Source: Gemmatimonadota bacterium
GTDB lineage: Bacteria > Gemmatimonadota > Gemmatimonadetes > Gemmatimonadales > Gemmatimonadaceae
DNA: 46,692 nucleotides
Direction of reading: 5' to 3'
Assembly (NCBI GenBank): GCA_016871915.1
Contig: VHBP01000013.1
Coordinates: 1-46,692, forward strand
Below the pieces are notes generated by a model, which made no database searches, was not told where the DNA came from, and saw nothing but the letters and a program-made list of their open reading frames with translations. Every line of letters starts with the position of its first letter. Within the stretch, counting starts at the first letter, position 1. Shown in pieces: positions 35,716 through 44,851 of this stretch. A program made the translations under genes and the position numbers.

Positions 35716-35742
35716 TTGGCGACGGCCTCAGGCCGTCGCCAA
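35716..35742. terminator. Convergent terminator hairpin overlapping the kinase stop codon
   Basis: Thirteen-base perfect arms (TTGGCGACGGCCT / AGGCCGTCGCCAA) around a single base. It starts 13 bases after the symporter stop and includes the last codons and TGA of the minus-strand kinase gene. Confidence 0.75.
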
Positions 35743-36657
35743 GGCCTTTCGCGCGACCTTCACCGCGCCACGCGCCGCATCGATCGCTTCGCCATGGAGA
35801 TGTGACCCCGGCACCGCGGTCTTGAGTCGGTGCTCGACGAGCCGCCGCAGGAAGCTCCCGCGGCGGAGAAGGCCACCGGAGAGGGCGACCGGCACCGAGG
35901 CGCGCTCATCGACGAAGAGCTGACGCGCCAGCGTCCGCACATGTACCACGAGCTCCTCGGCGGCCATCGTGCAGAGGGAGTTCGCGCGCAGGTCGCCATC
36001 GGCGGCGAGGGTCATCGCCGGCTCGGCGAGCTGCGCGAGGTCACACGGCGTCGCGTGGGCGGCCCAGCGAATCAGGTCATCGACCTCGTCGAGCTGGAGC
36101 GCGGTGAGGATCGCCCCCACGAGCTGCGTCTCAGGCTCCCGTCCATCGTGTGACGCGGTGACGATGCTCAGGATGCGGCGTCCCATCCAAGCGCCGCTCC
36201 CTTCATCGCCGCAGTGCGGGCCCCATCCGCCGCAGCGGAGGAAGGTCCCCGTCGGTCCGCGCCCGAACGCGACCGACCCCGTCCCGCCGATCAAGAGGAT
36301 CCCGGCACCATCACCGAAGGCATCTTCGAGCGCGATCTCGGCATCGGTGGTCACGATGACCTCTTCGGCGAGCGACTGTCCCTTCAGGGCGCGCAGGAGT
36401 GCCTTCCGTTCGGCGTCCTGGCCAGCGCCCGCGACCCCGACACAGAGCAGCCGCGGCGTCTCCTCCTGGCCCGCTCGCGTCAGCGCATCACGCAGGAGCC
36501 CGCCGATCACCTCGGCGGAGTGCAGCGACTCACCGGGACGGAGTGCGCTCCCCTCACCGGTCAGCGTGGCGAGGACCTTCCCGCGAGCATCGGCGACCTG
36601 AACCGCGGTCTTGCTCCCCCCTCCATCGACTCCCACGACCAGATGCGACATAGACAT
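35728..36657 (-). CDS. BadF/BadG/BcrA-family kinase, probable N-acetylglucosamine/N-acetylmuramic acid kinase
   Basis: 309-residue ASKHA-fold kinase. The phosphate-1 loop is GVDGGGSKTAVQV at the N-terminus, with the IGGTGSVAFGR phosphate-2 loop and a GCGPHCGDEGSG-like segment (GGWGPHCGDEGSGAWMG) that in this family contacts the sugar. The C-terminal SGGLLRRGSFL closes the nucleotide site. Family members include GlcNAc kinases and the bifunctional MurNAc/GlcNAc kinase MurK. The neighbours (SSS transporter, NagB fusion, NagZ-type and NamZ-type enzymes) support an amino-sugar role. Start at 36657 or 36651. Confidence 0.82.
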   Translation of the reverse strand: MSMSHLVVGVDGGGSKTAVQVADARGKVLATLTGEGSALRPGESLHSAEVIGGLLRDALTRAGQEETPRLLCVGVAGAGQDAERKALLRALKGQSLAEEVIVTTDAEIALEDAFGDGAGILLIGGTGSVAFGRGPTGTFLRCGGWGPHCGDEGSGAWMGRRILSIVTASHDGREPETQLVGAILTALQLDEVDDLIRWAAHATPCDLAQLAEPAMTLAADGDLRANSLCTMAAEELVVHVRTLARQLFVDERASVPVALSGGLLRRGSFLRRLVEHRLKTAVPGSHLHGEAIDAARGAVKVARKALATA

Positions 36658-36669
36658 TCCGTTCCCGGT

Positions 36670-38199
36670 TCAGGCGGTGCGTGCCACGGACGGCGCGGCA
36701 TGCGTGAAGGAGGACAAGATACCCACGCTGAGGGTGATCGTGGTGCCGATCAGCACGAACCAGGGCCAGGCGATCCCCTTGACGGGGGTGAGGAGCCCAT
36801 CCAGCGCGGGGACGGCAGCGGCGATGCGCGTGGCGAAGACGATCAGCGTCATCACCGCGATCCCGGTGGCCATTCCCGTGATCGCATCGCGCTGCGTGGC
36901 GCGCGGCCACGCCATAGCGAGGAAGAACCCACCCAGGAGCCCACCATAGGTAAAGGATGCGACGCTGAGCGCGATCACCACCACCGGTGTCCCCTCCGCG
37001 CGGTAGGTGAGCGCCCCACCGATGAGGATCATCGCCCAGACGAGGGTGAAGATCTTCGAGACGCGCAGCAGCGCGGCGGCGTCAGCCCCGCGCCCGCGGA
37101 GCGGGACCCAGAGGTCGTGCGTCGTCGCGGCGGCGAGGGCGTTGATCGACCCGGAGATCGTGCTCATCGCCGCGGCGAGGATCGCGGCGATCACCACGCC
37201 GGTCATCCCCGGCGGCATCTCCTCGACGATGAAGGTGGGGAAGATCTTGTCGGGCGCCGAGAAGGTGCGGGCGTCGTAGAAGGCCCAGAGCCCGACGCCG
37301 ATGAGGAGGAAGAGGGCGAACTGGAGGATCACGCCGATCCCACTCCCGATGAGCGCCCGTCGTGCATCACGCAGGGAGCTCGACGCCATCAGGCGCTGAA
37401 CGATGATCTGGTCCGCGCCATGGGAGGCGGCGGAGAGGAAGGCGCCTCCGAGGAGCCCGCCGATGAGCGTATGCGGCTTGTCGAGCCCGAGATACGGGTC
37501 GATGAGTCGCAGCTTCCCGGCCTCACCCGCACGCGCGAGGATCGCGCTCCACCCCCCATCGACACCCTGGCCAATGAGGTAGACGGCCCCGAGTCCGCCG
37601 GCGAGGTAGACTCCGGTCTGGATCACATCGGTCCAGACCACGGCACGCATCCCACCATGGTAGGTGTAGAGCAGGGTCGTCCCACCGAGTGCGAGGATCG
37701 AGACCGGCGTGAGATACTGTGCTGGGACGATCGGCCCGAGGATCAGCGCGATCGGGATCGCCGTCGCGAAGACGCGCACCGAATCGCCGAAGGCGCGCGT
37801 GAACATAAAGGTCACTGAGGCGAAGCGGCGCGTGGCCGTCCCGAAGCGCCGTTCCAACAGCGAATACGCCGTCACCAATTCCCCATCCATGTACTTGGGG
37901 AGCAGCGTGAAGGCGATCACGATCCGTCCGAGCAGGTACCCGGTCGCGACCTGCAGGAAGGTGAAATCGCCGAGGTAGGCGAGTCCTGGGATCGAGATGA
38001 AGGTCAGCGCACTCGTCTCCGTCGCGACGATCGAGAAGAGCACCGCCCACCAGGGGATCGTCCCGCCGGCGACGAAGTAATCCTTGGCGTCCTTTTGCCC
38101 GCGCCCGAGCCAGATCCCTAGCGCCGTGGTTCCCGCGAGGTAGACGAGGAGGATCCCCCAATCGAGGGCGGTGAAGGCCGCATGTTCAGTCGACGACAT
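36670..38199 (-). CDS. Sodium:solute symporter (SSS family), possible amino-sugar importer
   Basis: 509-residue transporter of the SSS family with about 13 hydrophobic helices. Signature stretches are KDYFVAGGTIPWWAVLFSIVATETSALTFISIPG and the core YTYHGGMRAVVWTDVIQ, with GGLLGGAFLSAASHGADQIIVQR and AAILAAAMSTISGSINALA further on. The start ATG at 38199 overlaps the NagB-fusion stop by 14 bases, and the kinase starts 12 bases after its stop. It therefore sits between amino-sugar enzymes in one operon, which suggests that it imports GlcNAc, MurNAc or a related sugar. That substrate is inference. Confidence 0.85.
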   Translation of the reverse strand: MSSTEHAAFTALDWGILLVYLAGTTALGIWLGRGQKDAKDYFVAGGTIPWWAVLFSIVATETSALTFISIPGLAYLGDFTFLQVATGYLLGRIVIAFTLLPKYMDGELVTAYSLLERRFGTATRRFASVTFMFTRAFGDSVRVFATAIPIALILGPIVPAQYLTPVSILALGGTTLLYTYHGGMRAVVWTDVIQTGVYLAGGLGAVYLIGQGVDGGWSAILARAGEAGKLRLIDPYLGLDKPHTLIGGLLGGAFLSAASHGADQIIVQRLMASSSLRDARRALIGSGIGVILQFALFLLIGVGLWAFYDARTFSAPDKIFPTFIVEEMPPGMTGVVIAAILAAAMSTISGSINALAAATTHDLWVPLRGRGADAAALLRVSKIFTLVWAMILIGGALTYRAEGTPVVVIALSVASFTYGGLLGGFFLAMAWPRATQRDAITGMATGIAVMTLIVFATRIAAAVPALDGLLTPVKGIAWPWFVLIGTTITLSVGILSSFTHAAPSVARTA

Positions 38200-40075
38200 A
38201 AGCCTCGATGGCGTTGTACTCGGCGAGGCCGAGTCCGTTGAGGAGATCGGCGGTGCCGGTGTTGCGTTGCTCGACGCGCTGCCAGAATTCGCGCTCGTCC
38301 TGGCCGGGGAAGGGGGCCGAGTCCTTCTGCGATTGATGCTTGAAGATCGCCTGGATCTTGAGGCGGAGTTCGTCACCCGAGAGGGGGACGAGCCAGGTGG
38401 CCTCATGGATCGGCCACTCCTGCCAGGCCCCGCGATAGAGCCAGACTTCGGGGGCCACGGGCGACCCGTCACGCTCGGCGACTTCCGGCGCGGGGTGCTG
38501 TGGTCTGCGCGGTCGCGCCGGGTAGCAGCGTGCGAGGGCCGCATCGATCGCGTCCTTGCACATCCGGTGTGTCCCGTGCGGATCGCTCAGGTCACCGGCG
38601 ACGAAGATGTAATGGGGCTGGAGCTCGCGAATGAGCCGCTCGACGATCGCCACATCCTCAGGGCCGACGGGGCGCTTCTCGATCGTCCCCGTGTGATAGA
38701 AGGGGAGGTCGAGGAAGCGGGCATGGGCGGCATCGAGTCCCATCGCCTCGAGTCCGGAGATTGCCTCTGACTCGCGGATGATCCGCTTGAGGTCGGCGAC
38801 CTCCGTGTGATCGGGGACGCCGGCGGCCTTGTGCTGCATCGCATCGAGGAGTCGCGTCACATAGTGGTCGACCTCAGCGGTGGCGAGATGCCGCTCCGAC
38901 GCGATGCGCCGCAGCACATCGAGCTGTCGCCGCACGTCGTGATCGAAGACCGCGATGTTCCCACTCGTCATATACGCCACGGTGATCGCGTTCCCGTTCT
39001 CGACCAACTTGCGTAGGATCCCCCCCATCGAGATCACGTCATCGTCGGGATGCGGGGAGAAGCAGAGCACTCGTGCGCCTTTGGGGAGCTTGGTACGGCC
39101 TCGGATCCGTCCGACGAGATCGAGGAAGACATCGCCATTCACCGTCCCGGTCGAACCGCCATGGCGCGCCAGGAGACCGGACAGCCGATGCTCTTCGTAG
39201 TCGGTCTCGCTCAGCTTAAGGATCGCCTTGCCGACGGTCTGCGACAGCCAGATCACCGCCCGCGTCTCGAGCTCCGGGGTCCACTGGACGCTGTCGACCA
39301 ACCAGGGGGTCGCTACGCGCGTGAGCTCGGCGGCCGCCGCGGCATCGCAGTAGAACGTCGCCTTCGGGTGCCGCTGCAGGAAGGTCGCGGGGACGCCGAG
39401 GTCGACCTCGCCCTCCACCGCGCGACGGACGATCGTCGCCTTATGTTCCCCGGTGGCGAGGATCGCGATCTCACGGGCCGCGAGGATCGTCGCGACCCCC
39501 ATGGTGAGCGCCTCGTGCGGCACATGCCGCTCGCTGAAGAAGCTGCTCGCCGCATCGCGACGCGTGATGCGATCCAGGTGGATGCGGCGGGTGCGACTGT
39601 CGAGCCCCGAGCCGGGCTCATTGAAGCCGATATGCCCCGTCTTGCCGATCCCGAGGAGCTGGAAGTCGATCCCACCCGCGGCCTCGATCGCTGACTCGAA
39701 GGCGGCGCAGTGCGCGTCGATCGCCGCGCCGGTCAGACGTCCGTCGAGCAGATGCACATTCGCCGGATCGATGTCGATGTGCGAGAAGAGGTGCGTCCAC
39801 ATGAACCGGTGGTACGAGTGCGGACTCTCCGGTTCCATCGGGAGATACTCGTCCAGGTTGAAGGTCGCGACGCGAGCGAAGGAGAGCCCTTCCTCGCGAT
39901 GCAGACGTACGAGTTCGCGATAGACGCCGATCGGGGTGGAGCCGGTGGCGAGGCCGAGGACCGCGACCCGCCCCTCAGCGTTCCGCGCGCGGATCACCGC
40001 GGCGATGCGATGGGCGACCTCGCGCGCGAGCTGCGCATGGTCGGGGAGGATCCGGGTGGGGATGCGTTCGGTCAT
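38186..40075 (-). CDS. nagB: Glucosamine-6-phosphate deaminase fused to a PIG-L (LmbE) deacetylase
   Basis: 629-residue fusion. Residues about 1-270 form a NagB domain (VLGLATGSTPIGVYREL, FNLDEYL, GIGKTGHIGFNEPGSGLDS), converting glucosamine-6-phosphate to fructose-6-phosphate and ammonia. The aspartate that precedes Gly-His in E. coli NagB is threonine here. Residues about 350-600 form a zinc-dependent PIG-L/LmbE deacetylase domain with HPDDD (SPHPDDDVISMGG) and a second metal motif DPHGTH. Both domains look intact. Such fusions are known in Bacteroidota-like genomes. The start ATG 40075 lies 15 bases after a hairpin; an upstream GTG at 40120 lies inside it. First gene of nagB-SSS-kinase. 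Confidence 0.88.
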   Translation of the reverse strand: MTERIPTRILPDHAQLAREVAHRIAAVIRARNAEGRVAVLGLATGSTPIGVYRELVRLHREEGLSFARVATFNLDEYLPMEPESPHSYHRFMWTHLFSHIDIDPANVHLLDGRLTGAAIDAHCAAFESAIEAAGGIDFQLLGIGKTGHIGFNEPGSGLDSRTRRIHLDRITRRDAASSFFSERHVPHEALTMGVATILAAREIAILATGEHKATIVRRAVEGEVDLGVPATFLQRHPKATFYCDAAAAAELTRVATPWLVDSVQWTPELETRAVIWLSQTVGKAILKLSETDYEEHRLSGLLARHGGSTGTVNGDVFLDLVGRIRGRTKLPKGARVLCFSPHPDDDVISMGGILRKLVENGNAITVAYMTSGNIAVFDHDVRRQLDVLRRIASERHLATAEVDHYVTRLLDAMQHKAAGVPDHTEVADLKRIIRESEAISGLEAMGLDAAHARFLDLPFYHTGTIEKRPVGPEDVAIVERLIRELQPHYIFVAGDLSDPHGTHRMCKDAIDAALARCYPARPRRPQHPAPEVAERDGSPVAPEVWLYRGAWQEWPIHEATWLVPLSGDELRLKIQAIFKHQSQKDSAPFPGQDEREFWQRVEQRNTGTADLLNGLGLAEYNAIEAYVVD

Positions 40076-40090
40076 CGATCGGGGAGATGC

Positions 40091-40130
40091 GACGAGGCCC
40101 GCGCCCCCAGATGGGGACACGGGCCTCGTC
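40091..40130 (-). terminator. Hairpin between erpA and the nagB fusion
   Basis: Eleven-base perfect arms (GACGAGGCCCG / CGGGCCTCGTC) around an 18-base loop with further GC pairing. It probably ends the erpA transcript. It sits only 15 bases before the nagB ATG, so an effect on nagB expression is possible. Confidence 0.6.
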
Positions 40131-40179: not shown

Positions 40180-40536
40180 TTACGCCGAGAAGCTGCTGCC
40201 GCAGCCGCAGCCGCCGGTGGCGTTCGGGTTCTTGAAGGTGAAGCCCGAGCCCTGCATCGAGGTCACGTAGTCGATGATGACGCCGTTGAGGTACTGCATC
40301 GAGAAGGGATCGACGAAGACGTTGAACCCGGTCTGCGCGAGGATCGTGTCATCCTCAGCCGGCTTATCCTCGATGAGGAGGCTGTACTTGAAGCCCGAGC
40401 ACCCGCCGGGCTGGACGCTCACGCGGAGCCCGCCGACCTCAGGGGCGACGTTCTCGGCGACCATGAACTTCGCGACCTCGGCCGCAGCGGCCGTGGTGAT
40501 GGTGACCATGACCTCAGGGGCATTCATCGTGCTCAT
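40180..40536 (-). CDS. erpA: A-type iron-sulfur cluster carrier (ErpA/IscA family)
   Basis: 118-residue HesB/IscA-family protein that carries Fe-S clusters to apo-enzymes. The three conserved cysteines are in GGCSGFKYSL and the C-terminal GGCGCGSSF. The ATG at 40536 is chosen because GGAGG lies seven bases upstream; the 37 residues before it in the open frame are shadow. It is useful to the Fe-S-rich ActB, but no link is shown. It stands between the hexosaminidase fusion and the nagB operon. Confidence 0.93.
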   Translation of the reverse strand: MSTMNAPEVMVTITTAAAAEVAKFMVAENVAPEVGGLRVSVQPGGCSGFKYSLLIEDKPAEDDTILAQTGFNVFVDPFSMQYLNGVIIDYVTSMQGSGFTFKNPNATGGCGCGSSFSA

Positions 40537-40630
40537 CGAGTTCCTCCGCGACAGAAGGTGAGGCCACCTGGTGGTGGCCGAACTGCGTACCCCCGAAATA
40601 TGCGACCGAGCGGGGGAGCGAACAAGATTG

Positions 40631-43555
40631 TCAGGGGCTACTGACACTCCGGGCGGGGCCCCCGCCGAGGGTCAGAGCGAGGTCGGCCACGGTGGTCCGG
40701 ACCGGGCCGATCCGGGAGTTCTCCCGCGTCGGGTTCACCCGGTTGGTCAGGAGGATCACGAATCGGTCATTGACCGGATCGATCCAGAGGGAGGTTCCGG
40801 TGAACCCGGTGTGCCCGAAGGCGGGGCGCCGCATGAGCCGGCCGGCGGAGTTGGTCCCCGTCGGGGTCTCCCATCCCAAGGCCCGGTTCGAGAACTCCGC
40901 GAACTGCACCCGGGTGAAGGCTTGGATGGTCTCGGCTCCGAAGATCCGCACCCCGTCGAGGGAGCCCCCATTGAGGTACATCTGGGCGAAGCGGGTGAGA
41001 TCGGCGGCGGTGGAGAAGAGGCCGGCGTGCCCGGAAACGCCCCCCAACAGGAAGGCGTTCTCATCATGGACCTCGCCACGCACCAGGCGCCCACGCCACG
41101 GATCGCGCTCCGTGGGGGCGGTCCGCGCGTGCAGGGCGGGGGGCGGGGTGAAGCGCGTGTCCCGCATCTGCAGCGGGCCGAAGATGTGGGTCGCGAGATA
41201 CGCATCGAGCCGCTGGCCGCTCACGCGCTCGACGATCAGCCCGAGGAGGATCGCGCCGAGGTCGGAGTAGACCATCTTCGCACCGGGGGTGGTGTCGAGC
41301 GGAGCCGCGAGGACGATCGCACGCGCCGAGTCGGCGTTGCTGGTGCGCTTCCAGAGTTGGATGAAGGGCGCGAGTCCGGAGGAGTGGGTGAGGAGATGGC
41401 GCACCGTGACGCGTTCCTTGTGGCGTCCCTTCCACTCCGGGAGGTAGCGCTGCACCGGCGCGTCGAGGACGATCTTCCCCTGTTCGCTGAGCTGCATCAC
41501 CGCCGAGGTGAGCCCGACGACCTTGGTGAGGGAGGCGAGGTCCCAGAGCGTCTCGGTGGAGGGGGCGGGGGCGTCGGCGGCCCAGTCGATCCGGCCGGCA
41601 CTGACCTGCGCGAGGATCGTGTTGCGGGAGCCGATGACGGCGATCGCGCCCGGCGTCACCGAATCACGGACGGCACGATCGAGCACGCGTTGGACTGAAT
41701 CGGCGAGCGAGAGGTTCGAGGAGGGGGCGGGGGCCGCGGTGGCGGTCACGATCCCGTCTCCGACGCGGAAGATCCCAGGGAGCGTGATCGGTGCGCGACC
41801 ACGGAAGGGGATCCGTCCGGTCAGGGCCTGCACCGCGGCGCGCTCCATGGCATCCCCGCGCCCGAAGGTGGCCACGTAGTGCCGCACCGAGGGGAACTCG
41901 CGGATCACGTATGGGTTCGAGAAGGCGACGACGACCGTCGGCTGGACCTTCGCGAGGGAATCGATCCAGCGCGCCGTCTGCTGGCCCACCGCGAAGCGCC
42001 CTTCGCCCTCGATGGTGCGGATGAAGGTCGCGAGTACCACGCGCTCCCCGGGGCGCACGAGTGAATCGAGTCGGGCCCGAGAGGTGGTGGGATTGATCCG
42101 CACGATGCGGCTCTCGGGGAGGGCCGCGCGCAGGTCCGCGGCGAAGGTGCGGCCGCCGGCGATGTCGTTCTCCCCACCGAAGGTGAGGATCACGGTCCGG
42201 CCCGTACGCGCGAGGGGGAGGAGGGTGGCGTCGTTCCGAAGGAGGGTGATCGCCTCGTCGGCGATGCGTTGCGCGGTGCGACGGTTCTCGGCCGACCCGA
42301 CGACCTCACGCAGCGAATCGAGGTCGACGATCGGGCGCTGGATCGCGCCGGTGCGGAGCTTGTACTCGAGGATGCGCCGCACCGAGGCATCGATGCGCGC
42401 CGTCGTGATCTCGCCACGTTCGATCGCCGCCGCGATGGCATTGACGGTGGCGTTCACGTCCGCCGGCATGAGGAGGATGTCAGCGCCGGCCTGCACCGCC
42501 TTCACGACGCTCTCCTCGAGGCCGTAGCCCGCCCCGATCCCGCGCATGTCCATCGCGTCGGTGACCGCGAGCCCGCGGAAGGCGAGGGTGTCGCGCAGGA
42601 GGGATTGGAAGATCGCGGGGACGAGGGTGGCCGGCGTCGAATCCTTCGAGACGGCGGGGAGCGCGATGTGCGCGCTCATCACCCCCGCCACGTTTGCAGC
42701 GATCGTGGCGCGAAAGGGACGTAGCTCGACGCTGTCCATCCGCGCCCGCGTCGCGCCGACGACGGGGAGGGCGAGGTGCGAGTCGGTGTCGGTGTCGCCA
42801 TGGCCCGGGAAGTGCTTCACCGTCGCCATCACCGCCGCCGACTGCACCCCCTCCACGAAGGCGGCGCTCATCGCCGAGACGCGCTCGGGGTCCTCGCCGA
42901 AGGAGCGGACGTTGATCACGGGGTTCGCCGGATTGTTGTTCACGTCCACGGTGGGGGCGAAGGCAAGGTGGATGCCGATCGCCCGCGACTCCTCACCGAC
43001 GATTCGGCCCGCTTCACGCGCCCAGGCGATGTTCCCCGTGGCGCCGATCGCCATGTTGTTGGGAAGCACGGTGGCGTCGCCCCCACGTAACAGGCCCGGC
43101 GCGAAGACGCCGCCCTCGAGACGCCCGAGCCCGGGTTCTACATCGGACGCCACCAACAACGGCACCTCCGCCCGACGCTGCAACGCATTCACCTTGGCGG
43201 CGACCTCGATCGGCGAGCCGAGCGACATCACCACGCCACCCACCTTGTCGACGCGCACCCGCTCGGCGGCATCGGCGAAGGTCTGGTCGGTGGTGCTGGT
43301 GTAATCGCCGAGCACCCAGATCATGATCATCTGGGCTATCTTCTCGCGCAGCGGCATCGCCGTGACCGTGGACTCGATCCAGCGTCGCGCCTCGTTCGGC
43401 AGTGGCGCCGAGAGCGAGGGCGGGAGAGCGCGGAGGTCGGCGGGGATCGTGCGCGGCGATGGCGCGCGCACGGGGCTCGAGACCGCGGGCGCACAGCTGA
43501 GCGCGACGAGGACGCCGGCAAGGCCGGCCCAACGGAGGGAGGTCGGGTGCATCAT
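40631..43555 (-). CDS. Fused NagZ-type beta-N-acetylhexosaminidase (GH3) and AmiE-like beta-lactamase-fold hydrolase
   Basis: 974-residue exported protein. The N-terminus MMHPTSLRWAGLAGVLVALSC is a lipoprotein-type signal. Residues about 55-400 are a GH3 catalytic domain with KHFPGHGDTDTDSH (Lys247-His248, the NagZ-like dyad segment) and the nucleophile Asp333 (VTDAMDM). A GH3 C-terminal domain reaches about residue 610. Residues about 620-960 are a class-C beta-lactamase-type domain with SLTK (Ser675/Lys678) and YSD as the tyrosine motif. In B. subtilis NagZ and the beta-lactamase-family amidase AmiE are separate adjacent genes; here they are one chain. Peptide-amidase or esterase activity of the second half is inferred. 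Divergent from the NamZ gene. Confidence 0.87.
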   Translation of the reverse strand: MMHPTSLRWAGLAGVLVALSCAPAVSSPVRAPSPRTIPADLRALPPSLSAPLPNEARRWIESTVTAMPLREKIAQMIMIWVLGDYTSTTDQTFADAAERVRVDKVGGVVMSLGSPIEVAAKVNALQRRAEVPLLVASDVEPGLGRLEGGVFAPGLLRGGDATVLPNNMAIGATGNIAWAREAGRIVGEESRAIGIHLAFAPTVDVNNNPANPVINVRSFGEDPERVSAMSAAFVEGVQSAAVMATVKHFPGHGDTDTDSHLALPVVGATRARMDSVELRPFRATIAANVAGVMSAHIALPAVSKDSTPATLVPAIFQSLLRDTLAFRGLAVTDAMDMRGIGAGYGLEESVVKAVQAGADILLMPADVNATVNAIAAAIERGEITTARIDASVRRILEYKLRTGAIQRPIVDLDSLREVVGSAENRRTAQRIADEAITLLRNDATLLPLARTGRTVILTFGGENDIAGGRTFAADLRAALPESRIVRINPTTSRARLDSLVRPGERVVLATFIRTIEGEGRFAVGQQTARWIDSLAKVQPTVVVAFSNPYVIREFPSVRHYVATFGRGDAMERAAVQALTGRIPFRGRAPITLPGIFRVGDGIVTATAAPAPSSNLSLADSVQRVLDRAVRDSVTPGAIAVIGSRNTILAQVSAGRIDWAADAPAPSTETLWDLASLTKVVGLTSAVMQLSEQGKIVLDAPVQRYLPEWKGRHKERVTVRHLLTHSSGLAPFIQLWKRTSNADSARAIVLAAPLDTTPGAKMVYSDLGAILLGLIVERVSGQRLDAYLATHIFGPLQMRDTRFTPPPALHARTAPTERDPWRGRLVRGEVHDENAFLLGGVSGHAGLFSTAADLTRFAQMYLNGGSLDGVRIFGAETIQAFTRVQFAEFSNRALGWETPTGTNSAGRLMRRPAFGHTGFTGTSLWIDPVNDRFVILLTNRVNPTRENSRIGPVRTTVADLALTLGGGPARSVSSP

Positions 43556-44851
43556 CTCGGACGGTGGGGCGTGAAGGTGGCGGGGCTCGTGCTCAGTGTG
43601 GCGACGGTCGCGGCCTGTGCGTCGCGCACGCCAGCACAGGGCGCGCCGACGAAGGCGCCGGCGGTCCGCCCCGGGATGACGGTGCTCCTCGAGGATTCGC
43701 TGCAGGTGATCGCGGCACGGCGCATCGCGCTCATCACCAACCATACGACCGTCGATGCCTCGGGGACGCATCTCATCGACGTCTTGCAGAAGGACCCGCG
43801 CGTGAAGCGAGCAAACGTCACGTTGGTCCGGCTCTTCTCACCCGAGCACGGGATCCGTGGCGATGTGGATCGCGAGAATCTCCCCGACCAACTCGATGAG
43901 CGGTCGGGATTGATGGTGCATTCGTTGTATACGAACGGTACGGTGCCGCCGCCCGACAGCCTGCTGCGGGACCTCGATGCGCTGGTCTTCGATCTGCAGG
44001 ACATCGGGACGCGCACCTGGACCTATGTGGGAGTGATGGTCTACGGGATGCGCGCCGCGGCGCGCGCCGGGATCCCCTTCGTGGTACTCGATCGACCGAA
44101 CCCGATCACCGGGCGCATGGAGGCCCCGCTCCTCGACTCGGCCCTCTCGAACCCAGAGGATCCCACCCCGACCCGTCGGGGCCTCGCCTTCGCATTATAC
44201 CCCGCGCCGTTGAGGCACGGAATGACAAACGGGGAGTTGGCACGCTGGTTCGCCGCCGAGCTGCGGATCCCGGTGCAACTGACGGTGGTGCCGATGCAGG
44301 GCTGGCGCCGTACGATGTGGTGGGACGAGACGGGGCTGCCCTGGGTGGTCCCGTCGCCGGCGATGGCGACGGTGGCGAGCGCGCTCGTCTATCCGGCGCT
44401 CGTCCCCTTGGAGGGGACCAACGTCTCCGTGGGGCGGGGGACCAAGGCGCCCTTCCAGCGGTTCGGCGCACCGTGGATGGATGCGCCGCGCCTCGCCACG
44501 ATGCTCAATGAGTTGGGCTTCGTCGGGGTGCGCTTCGAGGCGGAGCGCTTCACCCCGCGCGAGTCCCCCGATCGCAAGTTCAACGACCGGGAGATCCCCG
44601 GGGTGAAGATCGTGGTGACCGATCGCGACCGGGCCCCGATGGGGCGCGTGGGGGCCGCGGTGCTCTGGTCGCTCAAGAAGGTCCATGGCGATTCCCTCCG
44701 CGCCACGGAGCGCACGATCGATCAGCGGTTCGGTTCCTCCGCGGCGCGGCAGGCGCTCTTCGCGGGCACCGATCCCGATGAGGTGATCGATGCAATGCAG
44801 CCGGCGGTCGCCGCCTTCCAGCGGAAGGTGCGGCCGTACCTGCTGTACTGA
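43547..44851 (+). CDS. namZ: NamZ-like exo-beta-N-acetylmuramidase (DUF1343 / GH171)
   Basis: 434-residue DUF1343 protein, the family of B. subtilis NamZ, which releases MurNAc from the non-reducing end of peptidoglycan chains. Conserved stretches are RLFSPEHGIRGDVDRE, VFDLQDIGTRTWTYVGVMVYGM, VLDRPNPITG, GTNVSVGRGTKAPFQRFGAPWM and the terminal RPYLLY. The N-terminus has a lipoprotein signal (KVAGLVLSVATVAAC). The GTG at 43547 has a strong GGAGGGAGG upstream but overlaps the divergent gene by nine bases. GTG 43571 would give a 15-base gap and still keep the signal. Confidence 0.9.
   Translation: MHHLGRWGVKVAGLVLSVATVAACASRTPAQGAPTKAPAVRPGMTVLLEDSLQVIAARRIALITNHTTVDASGTHLIDVLQKDPRVKRANVTLVRLFSPEHGIRGDVDRENLPDQLDERSGLMVHSLYTNGTVPPPDSLLRDLDALVFDLQDIGTRTWTYVGVMVYGMRAAARAGIPFVVLDRPNPITGRMEAPLLDSALSNPEDPTPTRRGLAFALYPAPLRHGMTNGELARWFAAELRIPVQLTVVPMQGWRRTMWWDETGLPWVVPSPAMATVASALVYPALVPLEGTNVSVGRGTKAPFQRFGAPWMDAPRLATMLNELGFVGVRFEAERFTPRESPDRKFNDREIPGVKIVVTDRDRAPMGRVGAAVLWSLKKVHGDSLRATERTIDQRFGSSAARQALFAGTDPDEVIDAMQPAVAAFQRKVRPYLLY

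Follow-up and report, generated by a model that had tools for sequence, protein, structure and literature searches.

What does a protein do that carries a glycoside hydrolase of family 3 (GH3) and a β-lactamase-like domain in the same chain? One such protein is encoded on contig VHBP01000013.1 (assembly GCA_016871915.1) of a Gemmatimonadota bacterium, where the analyzed stretch of 46,692 nucleotides is called the window throughout. A minus-strand frame open from 40631 to 43771 most likely starts at the ATG at 43555 (or 43552) and codes for 974 residues. We consider it probable that this protein is a lipoprotein that carries out two successive steps of muropeptide salvage, first that of NagZ and then that of AmiE, feeding an uptake system, a sugar kinase, MurQ, and NagB. 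Its features are as follows.

40631..43555, minus strand: predicted NagZ–AmiE-type fusion lipoprotein, 974 residues (open reading frame, Pfam, matches in relatives)
43493..43555, minus strand: putative signal peptide with lipobox V-A-L-S-C, Cys21 (permissive lipobox pattern)
42365..43351, minus strand: GH3 catalytic domain of NagZ type, residues 69–397 (PF00933, motifs, alignment)
42776–42784, minus strand: GH3 dyad D258/H260 (motif KHFPGHGX4DSH)
42557–42559, minus strand: GH3 nucleophile D333 (motif, alignment to 3bmx)
41777..42250, minus strand: GH3_C domain, residues 436–593, a weak match (PF01915, 37 bits; cut-off 31)
41654..41758, minus strand: interdomain tether, about residues 600–634, overlapping the first residues of the PF00144 match (length varies among fusions)
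40718..41680, minus strand: domain with class C β-lactamase fold, apparently of AmiE type, residues 626–946 (PF00144, tree, motifs, model)
41522–41533, minus strand: S675/K678 of the second domain (SLTK motif)
41261–41269, minus strand: Y763-S-D765 of the second domain (YSD motif)
40805–40813, minus strand: H915-T-G of the second domain (GHTG motif)

The original prediction, made from the sequence alone, held that a GH3 enzyme and a β-lactamase-fold domain with SLTK and YSD motifs share one chain. Pfam bore this out with matches to PF00933 (277.6 bits, E 2e-82), PF01915, which scores barely above its cut-off, and PF00144 (216.9 bits, E 5e-64); as profile matches, the first and the last are far beyond chance. 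The GH3 half combines an N-terminal GH3 domain with the KHFPGHGX4DSH dyad and the Thr-Asp nucleophile (T332-D333) of NagZ-type enzymes. Asp333 had been named correctly as the nucleophile: it aligns with residue 318 of the Bacillus subtilis NagZ structure 3bmx. The dyad had been placed in the segment KHFPGHG. This motif is indeed present at residues 247–253, but because the catalytic Asp-His pair of NagZ enzymes lies within the DSH that follows it (PMC4974736), we assign the dyad to D258 and H260. These two residues and D333 are invariant in 15 fusions; over 34 aligned rows D333 remains invariant and D258/H260 nearly so. The best match of this half in the PDB is the GH3 β-N-acetylglucosaminidase 6k5j, and the third is B. 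subtilis NagZ (YbbD). The serine hydrolase motifs of the second half, SLTK, YSD, and GHTG, occupy residues 675–678, 763–765, and 914–917.

The protein had also been predicted to be exported. A lipobox match precedes the GH3 domain in all 20 fused open reading frames of the order, and the adjacent NamZ reading frames likewise contain one (20/20). The pattern is permissive, so that single matches mean little and consistency across reading frames means more. The fusion is therefore probably an envelope lipoprotein.

The fusion is not an assembly artefact. In a set of 61 genomes, comprising the window's own genome and 60 relatives (17 of the 61 belong to the same genus), matches spanning both domains without an internal stop occur in 20, including all 17 of the genus. 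Comparison with the closest relative, which is 94% identical, gave 40, 23, and 221 differences at the first, second, and third codon positions. A sample of 200 genomes from the phylum contains at least 31 matches that extend across both domains, a lower bound set by the threshold of E ≤ 1e-150; one of these has an internal stop and one starts at a contig end.

We then turned to the identity of the second domain. A search with B. subtilis NagZ against a collection of species genomes matched more than 585 loci, of which 80 were kept. In Bacillus sp. SKDU12, whose NagZ is 91% identical, the gene order is murQ-murR-murP-[PF00144-type gene]-nagZ-namZ. The published order of B. subtilis has amiE between murP and nagZ (PMC5061867, PMC6148471), and amiE is listed under PF00144 (PMC10653849). 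Because the two orders match, we take the PF00144-type gene of SKDU12 to be amiE; the references in the trees of the second domain are AmiE proteins of three Bacillus species identified through gene order in this way, and the assayed AmiE is not among them.

In a 64-row IQ-TREE phylogeny, the window domain groups with Bacillus AmiE, Escherichia coli YfeW, and serine hydrolases encoded in mur clusters, with moderate support (90/83). The PDB esterases 7pp3 and 7uda (as fragments) and a paralog from the window's own genome form a separate branch (100/99), so the second domain does not fall with the esterases sampled. AmpC and AmpH lie outside the clade of AmiE, YfeW, and the window domain. The first tree had lost 11 fused loci of the genus to thinning and all hits shorter than 250 residues, a cut that also removed every Bacteroidota fusion (their profile hit is split in two); for the second, six omitted rows were restored, four long-branch rows dropped, and 21 loci thinned.

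Motif analysis gave a similar picture. The domain has the SxxK, Y-S-D, and H-T-G residues of the Bacillus AmiE rows. A 24-row alignment yielded a set of six motifs. The window protein has them all, as do 4/4 AmiE and YfeW rows, 13 of 16 other GH3 fusions, and 45 of 52 other split genes; none of the six occurs in AmpC, in AmpH, or in either PDB esterase. Class C β-lactamases carry the motifs YxN and KTG, which in the window domain are replaced by YSD and HTG. A model of the domain from the 24-row alignment shows the class C β-lactamase fold with high confidence (predicted local distance difference test, pLDDT, 91; predicted template modeling score, pTM, 0.91). Fold comparison does not discriminate its identity: all 1000 chains reached Z ≥ 8, and the 50 rows listed, with Z of 33–39, contain AmpC enzymes and an acyltransferase as well as esterases, but no AmiE structure.

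Gene linkage connects the domain to the same pathway. A separate AmiE-type gene accompanies nagZ at 20 of the 80 NagZ loci, together with NamZ in 19 and with murQ in 14 of these. Among the 60 relatives, 57 genomes (all but G023, G024, and G050) supplied 60 regions, and the window was added to the counts. The fusion adjoins a divergent NamZ gene in 20 regions; NagZ and the hydrolase are separate genes next to divergent NamZ in 15; four have NagZ and hydrolase without NamZ, two have NamZ and divergent hydrolase without NagZ, and 14 have one of the three alone. This series from split to fused genes within one order is new within the literature we could search. Plasmid records add the orders anmK-hydrolase-nagZ and anmK-murQ-hydrolase-GH3 in Deinococcus and further clusters in Thermomicrobium and the archaeon Halorussus. 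The tree, the motifs, and gene linkage thus all favor the predicted NagZ and AmiE-type identities of the two halves; within the searchable literature, the assignment of the second half, which looks AmiE-type by these sequence comparisons, is also new.

The genes around the fusion suggest where its products may go.

43547..44851, plus strand: homologue of the exo-N-acetylmuramidase NamZ with lipobox, divergent, likely start GTG 43571 (Pfam, lipobox pattern)
40180..40647, minus strand: HesB/IscA-type Fe-S protein, encoded between fusion and transport genes (Pfam, island survey)
38186..40120, minus strand: NagB-type glucosamine-6-phosphate deaminase with a PIG-L deacetylase-like domain (Pfam; 5/15 relatives' islands)
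36670..38544, minus strand: SSF sodium:solute symporter, candidate importer of N-acetylmuramic acid (MurNAc) and N-acetylglucosamine (GlcNAc), true start probably near 38200 (Pfam; 15/15 relatives)
35728..36657, minus strand: BadF-family amino-sugar kinase (Pfam; nearest solved chain 8zo3)

The NamZ homologue has both domains of its family (PF07075 and PF20732, 215.1 and 132.9 bits). The best PDB match of the kinase is the MurNAc/GlcNAc kinase 8zo3 (E 1e-34), and the NagB protein, with its PIG-L/LmbE-type domain, matches NCBIfam PRK02122 with 868 bits. In wide regions fetched for 15 of the 19 fused relatives, BadF, SSF, IscA, the fusion, and NamZ occur together every time, and the NagB–PIG-L protein in five. 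MurQ, AnmK, and a second GH3 protein without an evident signal peptide are encoded consecutively elsewhere in the genome (G000:C2:30740-33745). All 17 genomes of the genus have MurQ above the cut-off and AnmK; the AmpG model matched in none of these 17 and in 15 of the 61 genomes overall, three of them above the cut-off. In Tannerella forsythia, free MurNAc is imported by MurT, phosphorylated by MurK, and then processed by MurQ (PMC7670621, PMC10465942).

We propose the following sequence of steps. The GH3 half would remove the non-reducing GlcNAc from GlcNAc-MurNAc-peptides, and the C-terminal serine hydrolase (S675/K678/Y763) would then cleave the MurNAc–L-Ala amide of the resulting MurNAc-peptide, while the divergently encoded NamZ lipoprotein would trim MurNAc off non-reducing ends. 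Once freed, GlcNAc and MurNAc would enter through the SSF symporter, whose substrate we infer, and be phosphorylated by the MurK-like BadF kinase; MurQ (AnmK for anhydro-MurNAc) and NagB would pass the sugars on to glycolysis or wall synthesis. The original prediction had the two activities in the order AmiE, then NagZ, which is probably reversed. The title of Litzinger 2010 reportedly gives NagZ first and AmiE second, and its abstract is said to state that AmiE cleaves MurNAc-peptides but not intact GlcNAc-MurNAc-peptides and hence needs NagZ. One review passage puts the dependence in reverse ("NagZ ortholog requires CWA AmiE", PMC6403190), and the literature passages searched hold no plain statement of the order in B. 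subtilis. We regard NagZ first and AmiE second as most likely.

This proposal would assign a concrete and testable activity to the part of a widespread envelope protein that is so far uncharacterized. It also points to an outside-first salvage like that of B. subtilis in a presumably Gram-negative lineage with no AmpG detected. A broader idea, which we hold only tentatively, is that NagZ, AmiE, and NamZ are parts of a single modular unit, fused anew several times, that dismantles muropeptides outside the cytoplasm. In AmpG-less bacteria such as this genus, this unit may largely replace cytosolic muropeptide recycling: lipoprotein-anchored enzymes would break down the fragments outside, and mostly single sugars would enter through an SSF symporter acting with a MurK-type kinase.

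Several observations weigh against this assignment and this route. Rather than pairing with Bacillus AmiE as its sister, the window domain occupies a separate subclade, and the branch that joins the two has moderate support; for these reasons we use the label AmiE-type rather than orthologue. Its nearest solved structures by Foldseek are the esterases EstG and EH7, with no AmiE structure among them. All six motifs are present in only two of six mur-cluster rows from plasmid records and in none of three NamZ fusions, and haloarchaeal members retain few. Six sampled relatives have divergent NamZ and NagZ genes with no hydrolase nearby. The second GH3 protein without signal peptide, encoded beside AnmK, suggests that this genome has an intracellular route, too. 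YfeW (PBP4B), reported as a DD-carboxypeptidase in the title of Vega and Ayala 2006, is the neighbor of Bacillus AmiE in the phylogeny (97/97), and in an Alteromonadales locus an AmiE-type domain shares its chain with an Amidase_2 zinc amidase, a combination that would be redundant if both were MurNAc-L-Ala amidases.

The last two observations would be accommodated if the C-terminal domain were a DD-carboxypeptidase or endopeptidase of PBP4B type that trims stem peptides, so that the fusion removes GlcNAc and edits peptides. PBP4B is also the top NCBIfam match of the domain, though below the cut-off (167.7 of 385 bits). However, yfeW lies within the murQP operon, so that YfeW may itself be an amidase, and AmpH, annotated as a DD-carboxypeptidase, has none of the six motifs. 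We regard this explanation as unlikely; YfeW, conversely, is suggested as a candidate MurNAc-peptide amidase.

An addition to the proposed NagZ–AmiE sequence, already part of the original prediction, is substrate channeling, in which facing active sites would hand the MurNAc-peptide directly from one to the other. Two consecutive steps in one chain and the recurrence of fusions in several phyla would fit this idea, but tether length is not conserved, with 29–51 residues across 15 fusions, and many relatives encode the same pair as separate genes. Structure prediction, from which the packing of the domains had been expected, leaves it unfixed: the full-length model has a pLDDT of 81.5 and a pTM of 0.71, and parts of the second domain are predicted with low confidence. 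It was folded from an alignment with five fused homologues covering the second domain; another alignment was discarded since 18 single-domain serine hydrolase rows were placed on the GH3 region. Channeling therefore finds no support here and seems quite improbable. Given the variable tether and the unsettled packing, equal dosage and a common anchor are most likely the purpose of the fusion rather than a tunnel.

That the second domain is an esterase or another acyl hydrolase unrelated to peptidoglycan, joined to NagZ by chance, is hardly credible: esterases are its nearest solved folds, but tree (100/99) and motifs set them apart, and the domain is repeatedly fused to or found next to NagZ, NamZ, and murQ. 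The suggestion by the authors of the RmNag3 study, based on the domain's name, that such a domain is a β-lactamase or β-lactam-related part tied to peptidoglycan recycling, linked to turnover through β-lactamase induction (PMC6987092), is close to negligible for the window protein, which has YSD and HTG in place of the class C motifs and whose clade excludes AmpC.

The architecture itself is already known. RmNag3 of Rhodothermus marinus (Sci Rep 2020) has a signal peptide, GH3 domains 1 and 2, and a C-terminal β-lactamase domain, and its authors name Salinibacter and Rhodohalobacter proteins of similar architecture and call it the only characterized enzyme of that layout (PMC6987092). The window protein shows the same order of signal peptide, GH3, weakly matched GH3_C, and β-lactamase-type domain, a likeness judged from the published description. 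The GH3 half of RmNag3 is active on chitobiose and chitopentaose; GlcNAcase activity alone was measured, and the β-lactamase domain was removed before modeling. By that account RmNag3 has no adjacent glycosidase gene, whereas the window fusion has the divergent NamZ gene beside it. A fusion named NagZ-AmiE was not found among the top matches in the open-license papers searched. In B. subtilis, AmiE (YbbE) and NagZ (YbbD) belong to the same families, are extracytoplasmic, and are clustered with NamZ (murQRP-amiE-nagZ-ybbC(namZ)), but they are separate proteins from separate genes, as had been predicted (PMC5061867), and import depends on the phosphotransferase system protein MurP rather than, as probably here, on an SSF symporter and a kinase. 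E. coli YfeW shares clade, motifs, and linkage to murQP, but stands alone. The fungal Rhizomucor miehei RmNag (4zm6) is also a GH3 GlcNAcase with an extra domain, in this case a GCN5-related acetyltransferase region (PMC4680927).

How often have these modules been joined? Five of the 80 NagZ loci hold a GH3–β-lactamase fusion, from Calditrichaeota (L187), Bernardetiaceae (L191), Bacteroidales (L193), Gemmatimonadota (L194), and Cytophagales (L195), and further GH3 fusions come from plasmid records of Parabacteroides, Phocaeicola, and Bacteroides. The collected reading frames include 28 NagZ-AmiE, three AmiE-NamZ, and one NagZ-NamZ fusion. The AmiE-NamZ fusions come from Burkholderiaceae (two Burkholderia records and one Cupriavidus record; Pfam was run on two of the three), and the NagZ-NamZ fusion is a single 1034-residue reading frame (L134:56-3157) with a NagZ-type GH3 domain in a Lachnospiraceae metagenome-assembled genome, one of the 80 loci. 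Pfam confirmation was run for L134, L187, and L194. These three pairwise fusions are new within the literature we could search. The fused state requires seven changes on the second-domain tree, at least five of them forced by well-supported branches, and five changes, at least four forced, on a GH3 tree of 57 rows from loci picked by hand out of 144 GH3 reading frames. The counts fit repeated fusion, repeated fission, or both, without distinguishing these. Viral contigs yielded one relative, and 60 phage records had a match.

Some further observations concern these genes and their relatives. Between 43547 and 43571, the start codons of the fusion and of NamZ abut or overlap, and gaps are short throughout the genus; the promoters are therefore probably located inside the opposite gene. 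An alignment of 20 start regions revealed no clear shared operator. Peptidoglycan synthesis is not known from haloarchaea. Halorussus plasmid records (L042, L115) nevertheless contain clusters of AnmK, AmiE-type hydrolase, NamZ, and NagZ, one of them with a protein of the peptidoglycan-recognition family, apparently for scavenging bacterial walls. The AmiE-type and Amidase_2 fusion mentioned above (L144:3685-6258, from a Paraglaciecola metagenome-assembled genome) also has a PG_binding_1 domain, and L168 and L184 have reading frames of like length that contain the AmiE-type domain. The window's own genome encodes a stand-alone, exported-looking serine hydrolase near the same clade with five of the six motifs (L205:6248-7558, contig C27), and like genes are found in many relatives. 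Finally, in the Gemmatimonadota metagenome-assembled genome L194 a separate second NagZ gene directly precedes the NagZ-AmiE fusion, with NamZ divergent, so that two NagZ stand side by side.

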